Assembly (NCBI RefSeq): GCF_011682145.1
Contig: NZ_WHJH01000005.1
Location: forward strand, 186,001 to 250,000
DNA: 64,000 bases
From: Massilia mucilaginosa
Lineage (GTDB): Bacteria; Pseudomonadota; Gammaproteobacteria; Burkholderiales; Burkholderiaceae_D
Reading direction: 5' to 3'
Under the pieces are notes generated by a model, which worked only from the letters and a program-made list of their open reading frames with translations, searched no databases and was not told the DNA's origin. Each line of letters begins with the position of its first letter. Position 1 is the stretch's first letter. Position numbers and translations under genes: made by a program. This document shows, in pieces, positions 25,567-27,080 of the stretch.

Positions 25567-25666
25567 GGTGCGTTTTTATCGATATGGCGCAAGTGTGGCC
25601 CGATTAACCAGCGCCTGGGGCGATCAGGAGTAAGATCGGTACAGTCAAACACCATGCGGAGGCACT

Positions 25667-26014
25667 ATGCAAGATACCCTGAGCGGCCCTGAGTCCTTCC
25701 CGGACGACGGCGCGGCCGATGGCACGGCCGAAGTAGAAGCGGTTCCGGGGCGCGACCTGTTCATCGTCGCCAAATTCTTCACGCCGACCGAAGCGCACCT
25801 GGCGCGCAGCTTCCTGGTCGCTTCCGGCATTCCTGCGGTGGTGGCCGATGTGAACCACGCCCAGGCCGACCAGTTCCTGCTGCCCGCGATGGGCGGGGTG
25901 CGCGTGCTGGCGCCCGAAGAATACCTGGAACAGGCGCAGCAACTGCTGGCCGCGCGCGAGCATGGCGACTTTGCCCTGAGCGACGATGCCGACGTCGGCC
26001 AGCCTGAAACCTAG
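25667..26014 (+). CDS. DUF2007 domain protein
   Basis: This 115-aa cytosolic protein has an acidic N-terminus and a DUF2007 domain (FIVAKFFTPTEAHLARSFLVASGIPAVVADVNH ... GGVRVLAPEEYLEQAQQLL, residues 31-97, shown here in two parts). DUF2007 is described as a putative signal-transducing module; its biochemical role is unknown. GGAGG precedes the ATG. The stop codon TAG is part of the CTAG at the left end of the inverted-repeat element. Confidence 0.85.
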   Translation: MQDTLSGPESFPDDGAADGTAEVEAVPGRDLFIVAKFFTPTEAHLARSFLVASGIPAVVADVNHAQADQFLLPAMGGVRVLAPEEYLEQAQQLLAAREHGDFALSDDADVGQPET

Positions 26015-26172
26015 TGTCCCGAGTCAGAAATTCGTTGAATAAATATGGCGATAATCGCGCCGATACCGCGTCACAAATGCTCGCCAGGCATTGCCTGTCT
26101 GCGCTTTGTTCCTTGTCTCGGTGCGATTTCGCCATATTTAATCATCAACGAATTTCTGACTCGGGACACTAG
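26011..26172. mobile_element. 162-bp fold-back (MITE-like) element with CTAG ends
   Basis: The ends are a perfect 28-base inverted repeat (26011-26038 and 26145-26172) beginning CTAGTGTCCCGAGTCAGAAA. After a small indel the match continues with TAAATATGGCGA and AATCGC-CCGA, giving arms of about 55-60 bases. The centre is a small palindrome (caggca-t-tgcctg). No protein is encoded. CTAG at both ends looks like a 4-base target duplication, as made by some IS5-group elements. Each CTAG provides the stop codon of a flanking convergent gene. Confidence 0.85.
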
Positions 26173-27080
26173 GCCGGCATCGTCGCCCATCCTGGCAGCG
26201 TGCCGATGCGCGCTGCCAGGAAGTCCATGAACAGGCGCGTCCGCGCCGGCTGGTAGCGCCTGGACGGATACACCAGTGCCACTTGCTGCGGCGTGCCGCT
26301 CCACGCGGGCAGCACGCGCGCCAGTTGGCCCGCTTGCACCAGGTCGTGCACCAGCCACTGCGGGCACAGGCCGATTCCGGCGCCCGCCAGCAGGCTGTCG
26401 CGAATCGCCAGTGCGCTATTGACCCGATAGCGCCCGCGCGTCGTCACCTTCACCACCTGCGCACCCCGCTGCAATGCCAGCGCGTCGCCGTCCGCCAGCC
26501 ACGCGAAGCGAATGAAAGCGTGCCGCGCCAGGTCGTCCGGCCGCTTCAGGCGCGCATGCGGCGCCAGGTACATTGGTGCTGCGACCAGCCAGCGCGGTGA
26601 TACCGCAATCGTGCGCGCCACCGCATCGGGCGGCAACGGCCCGCCCAGGCGCACCGCCACGTCCACGCCATCGCCGACCAGGTCGACGAAGCGGTCATTC
26701 AAAATCAGCTCGATCTCGATGTCCGGATGCAGCGCCAGGAACTCCTGCGCCAGCGCATTCAGGTGAAACTGACCCAGCGCCACCGGCGCATTCACGCGCA
26801 GCAGGCCCGTTGCCTGGCGCGCGTGGCCGCGTACATCGGCCAGCGCATCGTCGTATTCGTCGAGCAGGCGGCGCGCGCGCTCATGAAAGCGCACGCCTTC
26901 GGCCGTCGCCAGCAGGCCGGTGGTGCTGCGTTCGAGCAGGCGCACGCCAAGGTGCGCCTCCAGGGCGTTGATCGCCTTGCTGACCGTCGGCTGCGTGGTG
27001 CCGGCCTCGCGCGCCGCCGCCGACAGGCTGCCCAGGTCGACCGCGCGGGTGAACAGGTGCATCAAGCGCAGGGTATCCAT
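26169..27080 (-). CDS. LysR family transcriptional regulator
   Basis: This 303-aa regulator has a winged helix-turn-helix at residues 1-60 (LGSLSAAAREAGTTQPTVSK) and a LysR substrate-binding domain of the type found in CrgA-like repressors. GGAG precedes the ATG. It is divergent from the secreted GDSL esterase, the usual position for its target. Its TAG stop comes from the right CTAG of the fold-back element, which lies immediately downstream. Confidence 0.93.
   Translation of the reverse strand: MDTLRLMHLFTRAVDLGSLSAAAREAGTTQPTVSKAINALEAHLGVRLLERSTTGLLATAEGVRFHERARRLLDEYDDALADVRGHARQATGLLRVNAPVALGQFHLNALAQEFLALHPDIEIELILNDRFVDLVGDGVDVAVRLGGPLPPDAVARTIAVSPRWLVAAPMYLAPHARLKRPDDLARHAFIRFAWLADGDALALQRGAQVVKVTTRGRYRVNSALAIRDSLLAGAGIGLCPQWLVHDLVQAGQLARVLPAWSGTPQQVALVYPSRRYQPARTRLFMDFLAARIGTLPGWATMPA

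Follow-up and report, generated by a model that had tools for sequence, protein, structure and literature searches.

A probable IS630/IS870-type MITE that rebuilds the stop codons of two convergent genes in Massilia mucilaginosa

Background

How can a piece of DNA that folds back on itself lie exactly between two convergent genes and hold the stop codons of both without damaging either? The question is raised by one short locus in the window, by which we mean the whole 64 kb stretch of Massilia mucilaginosa DNA analysed here. A gene of the DUF2007 family (PF09413; 25667-26014, plus strand) and a gene for a lysR-type regulator (PF03466/PF00126; 26169-27080, minus strand) run towards each other and meet at a 162-base stretch, 26011-26172, which has CTAG at both termini and folds on itself across most of its length. 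An earlier note on this DNA argued for a fold-back element that entered a single CTAG shared by both genes as overlapping stops, duplicated those 4 bases, and was moved by a partner of the IS5 group. We believe most of this is right, with the exceptions of the partner and, probably, the duplication.

Several known systems bear on the question. A title in the reference list of PMC6471742 has the target CTAG supplying the stop codon of the IS870 transposase. The accessible part of PMC2170065 describes insertion of the IS630 family into TA with duplication of the TA (ISY100), and a title in its reference list gives a preference of IS630 for the TA within CTAG. RUP is an element for which mobilisation by IS630-Spn1 has been proposed, and the available part of the source (PMC2229807) describes RUP and the Correia/NEMIS elements as short, with long stem-loop potential and TA at their ends. 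These resemble our element by description, not by sequence, they live in other hosts, and that part of PMC2229807 mentions no sharing of host stop codons. MITEPsy1 of Pseudomonas syringae differs as well: it is related to ISPsy2 (given in a table as 'IS5?'), is 100 nt long and has other terminal repeats. In the open-licence literature we found no published description of a MITE restoring the stop of a host gene.

Results and Discussion

The fold-back is a mobile element

The fold-back exists at 26011-26172 as described, its coordinates are exact, and the stops of DUF2007 and lysR both lie inside its ends, as had been claimed. The arms at 26010-26038 and 26145-26173 are 29 nt long and 100% complementary. 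Folded as DNA, the region has a minimum free energy of -63.7 kcal/mol, whereas 200 shuffled sequences give -22.9 +/- 3.3 (z -12.5). Over the 64 kb, a scan for inverted pairs (arms of at least 22 nt, spacing up to 300) returned only this fold-back and one 22-nt, 86% overlapping palindrome. Within the stretch we place a MITE core of 156 bp at 26014-26169, which by arm pairing and folding folds back over its whole length and whose ends resemble those of IS630 elements. The terminal G (26014) and terminal C (26169) of this core complete the flanking stop codons; that the mobile unit runs from G to C is suggested by the IS630 family. By arm complementarity the left terminal inverted repeat is 26015-26038 (plus strand, joined by the G at 26014) and the right one 26145-26168 (minus strand, joined by the C at 26169). 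Outside the core lie what would be the two copies of the target TA, at 26012-26013 and 26170-26171, the duplication being indicated by IS630 membership and the accessible part of PMC2170065. Beyond these are the outer C (26011) and outer G (26172) of the target CTAG, identified from an empty site (L068). The DUF2007 stop, TAG at 26012-26014, would then be host TA plus element G, and so would the lysR stop, a TAG that reads CTA on the plus strand at 26169-26171.

This is not a chance palindrome because the genome (G000, 7.7 Mb) holds the element at 13 places, 12 as full copies and 1 truncated. Compared with the window copy, the full copies show 92-100% identity, 10 of the 12 reaching 95% or more, and their cores are 156-157 bp, too short for a transposase. 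Every one of the 24 matches to the terminal repeat in this genome (up to 3 mismatches) belongs to those 13 places. Elsewhere, 12 of the 100 genomes searched, the own genome included, match at E<=0.001, some of them weakly or partially. Full copies are present in G007, G011, G014, G015 and G016, and elements with the same ends in Herbaspirillum, Noviherbaspirillum and one betaproteobacterial MAG; a search of a plasmid collection found no copy of the MITE. The prediction of further copies was therefore borne out in the own genome, in other Massilia and in other Burkholderiales, and the window fold-back is an inserted mobile element that we place in a new family of IS630/IS870-type MITEs.

Some features of the copies are worth recording in their own right. 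L012 (G000) and L016 (G016) are a single insertion common to two species, each having TC in place of the left TA; it is an older copy in a set of recent ones. On visual inspection the hairpin tip seems better conserved across genera than the middle of the stem (L023, L024, L043, L049, L061), and it can be seen even in G074 (L024), where the ends are hardly recognisable. Core lengths are mostly 156-157 bp, about 15 helical turns, both in this family and in a second fold-back family described below (L001-L012, L185-L223); the relatives in G064 (L022-L175) have cores of 189 bp, about 18 turns, and L049 (160) and L061 (238) are exceptions to a rule of whole turns.

Empty sites at a shared CTAG

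The earlier note predicted that some relative would have an empty site where the DUF2007 and lysR genes meet at one CTAG. This is what G016 has (L068): the two homologues meet at a single CTAG, with TAG and the overlapping CTA as their stops. Compared with the window, both proteins finish at the homologous codon and differ in their last residues, for instance QPET versus QPEN. Both products keep their ends in the window, because the end letters of the element rebuild a stop on each side, so the proposed neutrality toward the protein ends holds. The same note would have counted against itself any relatives that lack the element and end these genes differently, and here the result is mixed. The comparison covered 6 relatives in which lysR adjoins DUF2007, and the exact shared CTAG occurs in G016 but not in the other five. 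In G014 the DUF2007 stop is a TAA directly before the CTAG of lysR, the genes end in other ways in G009, G012 and G003, and G007 has a different fold-back there.

Insertion at a shared stop is not unique to the window, because the own-genome copy L007 shows the same arrangement with empty sites in congeners: it is flanked by a DUF3224 gene and a different lysR gene, and in G016 and G007 (L130, L131) these two genes share one CTAG and the element is absent. In a related genus, copy L023 of G043 lies at the end of a gene that looks acetyltransferase-like from its translation, and three relatives (L139, L141, L144) have the empty site CTC TAG TCC. Among 13 genomes of that genus in which this locus is present, 2 have the element there, 3 the empty CTAG, 2 CTC TAA and 6 other endings.

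The probable partner is an IS630 element

Two loci in G009 (L083, L176) combine a closely similar end with an IS630-family transposase; the transposase model NF033545 gives 230 bits for the G009 protein and 291 bits for that of another IS630 element with similar ends, on a Myxococcales contig (L054). Both G009 copies are interrupted by extra DNA (about 1.2 and 1.8 kb) which by eye resembles other insertion sequences. G003 has a core of 1167 bp with similar ends between two CTAGs, and an IS630 element in G008 has the right end only. Relatives of the G009 transposase occur in 1940 plasmid records, mostly below 60% identity, and the best of them, at 93% protein identity, is on a conjugative Janthinobacterium plasmid. 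Among 8 plasmid elements fetched, the left end was found in 8 (1-3 mismatches) and the right end in 7 (0-2 mismatches), the probe being the 20 bases of the G009 right end, which differ from the window arm at 2 of 20. The MITE thus shares its terminal inverted repeats with IS630-family elements in G009, G003, G008, L054 and on plasmids. Since the elements found with these ends encode IS630 transposases (G009, G003, L054, plasmids), we abandon the proposed IS5-group origin.

These partners also close their own reading frame in the manner of IS870. In 10 of the 11 partner copies examined the transposase gene takes its stop from the target CTAG immediately beyond the element; the one exception, L231, has no recognisable right end. 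In the annotation of a Caballeronia plasmid, the transposase gene and a convergent hypothetical-protein gene share four bases where they stop, an arrangement that mirrors the ancestral one in the window. The likeness to IS870/IS630 is therefore in the CTAG/TA target and in a transposase frame that stays open to the last base and takes its stop from the target. The difference is that the window element has no transposase, and the stops affected belong to host genes.

The own genome has no relative of the partner transposase at E<=1e-60, and the 6 weaker IS630 matches in G000, G016 and G015 show no such ends within the flanks fetched. The MITE was probably moved by an IS that has been lost or was only visiting, because the searches found no transposase between matching ends in its own genome. 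A simple deletion derivative of the G009 element is unsupported, because the similarity between the two stops at the first 32 bases.

The bias toward gene ends

CTAG is scarce in this genome. In 784 kb there are 120, the window's two included, where base composition predicts 2536 and a second-order chain 462. The MITE and its relatives occupy gene ends more often than the available target sites predict. With a home-made gene caller and a simple Massilia codon model, 19 of 35 copies from six Massilia genomes fall at gene stops (5 of them at a double stop), 15 between genes and 1 inside, against 18 (2 double), 75 and 23 of 116 control CTAG sites, all from one genome (Fisher p = 1.1e-5, uncorrected). 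The excess of double stops gives p 0.008 (uncorrected), and the own genome alone, with 8 of 12 copies on stops, gives p 0.0003. The 35 copies are what is left of 43 after 8 partial or decayed ones are removed (L013, L036, L094, L097, L098, L099, L102, L106), and they are not all independent because at least one pair (L012, L016) is one shared insertion. An earlier and cruder form of the test, run on all 43 copies, placed 18 of them at stops, 4 at double stops, compared with 18 of the 116 control sites, 2 at double stops (p 0.001 and 0.046); in the own genome it placed 7 of 12 at stops (p 0.002). In the own genome, 7 of 8 checked proteins ending on own-genome copies have a Pfam family, the protein left of L006 having none. 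Outside Massilia, where the codon model is a borrowed one, 0 of 8 copies in G064 and 1 of 3 in other genera (Herbaspirillum L043) were flagged at a stop.

Conservation of the hairpin

The fold itself has been kept. Across 14 diverged copies, 93.9% of cells remain paired, and the inner stem is conserved in addition to the terminal arms (the Noviherbaspirillum row of this alignment has no right end). Changes on both sides that preserve pairing are found at 17 of 50 pairs over the 14 sequences, whereas shuffles give 7.1 +/- 1.6, with 0 of 500 as high, and slid controls give 1-6. There is no sign of selection on one transcript strand, because G-T cells are not clearly in excess over A-C cells: 12 versus 21 when one near-fixed G-T pair is omitted and 25 versus 21 when it is included. 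Rfam gave no match up to E 1 in 25600-26600, and a terminator scan gave one terminator-like match where 0.3 were expected. A function at the level of the transcript is supported by neither of these searches nor by the G-T/A-C balance.

Weighing the alternatives

The most direct challenge to our reading is that the same MITE duplicates the whole CTAG, by an IS5-like mechanism, and begins at TGTCC. The window copy alone is indecisive because the TA and 4-base models predict identical letters at a CTAG target. The rival gains something from the CTAG found on both flanks in 7 of the 12 full copies of the own genome; with all copies oriented uniformly, the right flank is CTAG in each of the 12. It gains also from the empty sites of copies with odd flanks, which read CTAG too (L125/L126 for L004, L130/L131 for L007, L139/L141/L144 for L023), so a 4-base duplication that later mutated has some room. 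However, the transposases found within such ends are IS630, a family that duplicates TA according to the accessible part of PMC2170065. The left and right four-mers also disagree wherever the outer bases differ: TTAG/CTAA in L023, ATAG/CTAG in L004 and L104, TTAG/CTAG in L007 and L175. Judged from these sequences, the unequal four-mers favour duplication of TA. All 35 aligned copies retain the inner G and the inner C; the flank departs from CTAG in 8 on the left side and in 3 on the right side, each time at the TA or the outer base. We therefore consider duplication of the whole CTAG, as the earlier note had it, very improbable. The G and C beside the TA most likely belong to the element, as its terminal bases, each stop being host TA plus element G. 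A directional reading of the IS200/IS605 kind, suggested by flank variation on one side, was dropped once the copies were uniformly oriented and the partner proved to be IS630.

The remaining alternatives leave the insertion as it is and ask why the element is found where it is and why it keeps its shape. Purifying selection, together with the rarity of CTAG inside genes, could account for part or all of the gene-end bias, with no special role for the stop codon. The scarcity of CTAG, the single copy of 35 called inside a gene and the lack of bias in G064 all suit this explanation. It is opposed by a bias that persists when copies and CTAG sites inside genes are both set aside, at 19 of 34 copies versus 18 of 93 sites (p = 1.3e-4, uncorrected, with one control genome and the home-made caller). 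We regard it as an even bet. The fold-back might instead be retained because it benefits the host through a transcript or a cruciform, for example as a two-way terminator between convergent genes. The compensatory changes at 17 of 50 pairs are what such a benefit would leave behind, but G-T is not in excess over A-C, the terminator-like match is a single one, Rfam is silent over the locus, and conversion from arm to arm or replication through the hairpin may match the arms without any gain to the host. Host use and arm-to-arm conversion are both possible causes of the kept pairing, and retention for the host's benefit seems to us unlikely.

Other fold-back families at the same kind of site

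A second, unrelated fold-back family is present in G000, G007, G016 and G014. Its core is mostly 157 bp, with ends AGTAAGTG... and TA flanks. In 35 chosen copies (G000, G007, G016) the flanks are CTAG-type in 16, TTAG/CTAA-type in 11 and altered in 8. Gene stops, read as TAA, coincide with 16 of the 35, compared with 62 of 510 control CTAG/TTAG/CTAA sites. One copy, L067:1843-2005 in G007, holds the same lysR end that the window element holds in G000. A third fold-back, with ends GAGCCTGTCTCGGTAGA, is at about 1340-1510 of L132 (G014), between homologues of the genes of the L007 locus and beside a TAA stop.

Conclusions

We believe that a non-autonomous MITE of the IS630/IS870 type was pasted into the TA of a CTAG forming the stops of both genes, that the TA was duplicated, and that both TAGs were rebuilt, and we give this a probability of roughly 0.92. 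The palindromic element of 156-157 bp would have been inserted by a transposase acting in trans; close relatives occur in congeners and on plasmids. The target would have been the TA of the CTAG that formed the overlapping stops of the two convergent genes, and at the window copy this TA, rather than the CTAG, was presumably duplicated. An element that starts with G and ends with C would make TAG again on each side and so preserve the ends of both proteins. Survival at gene ends would be favoured because an insertion there is probably harmless.

A wider idea is one we put forward only tentatively, and we would not yet wager on it. Stop codons may be a refuge for IS630/IS870-type elements and their MITEs, which may have evolved CTAG targeting together with a terminal G; a single insertion would then shut the transposase frame and also restore the TAG of the host gene, in some cases of two host genes together. 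Fold-back families unrelated to them would have converged on this niche, the second with a terminal A that rebuilds TAA, and with one copy, in a sister species, on the very same lysR end.

The kind of element is already known; the recurrent restoration of stops on the host side is the interesting part. A rare tetramer with TAG on both strands, joined to an element whose letter rebuilds the stop, would be a low-cost way into a compact genome. Annotators should bear in mind that mobile elements provide some stop codons and can land where convergent stops overlap. The published IS870 rule, that the target supplies the stop of the transposase, is linked here to a counterpart on the host side, open to counting across genomes.
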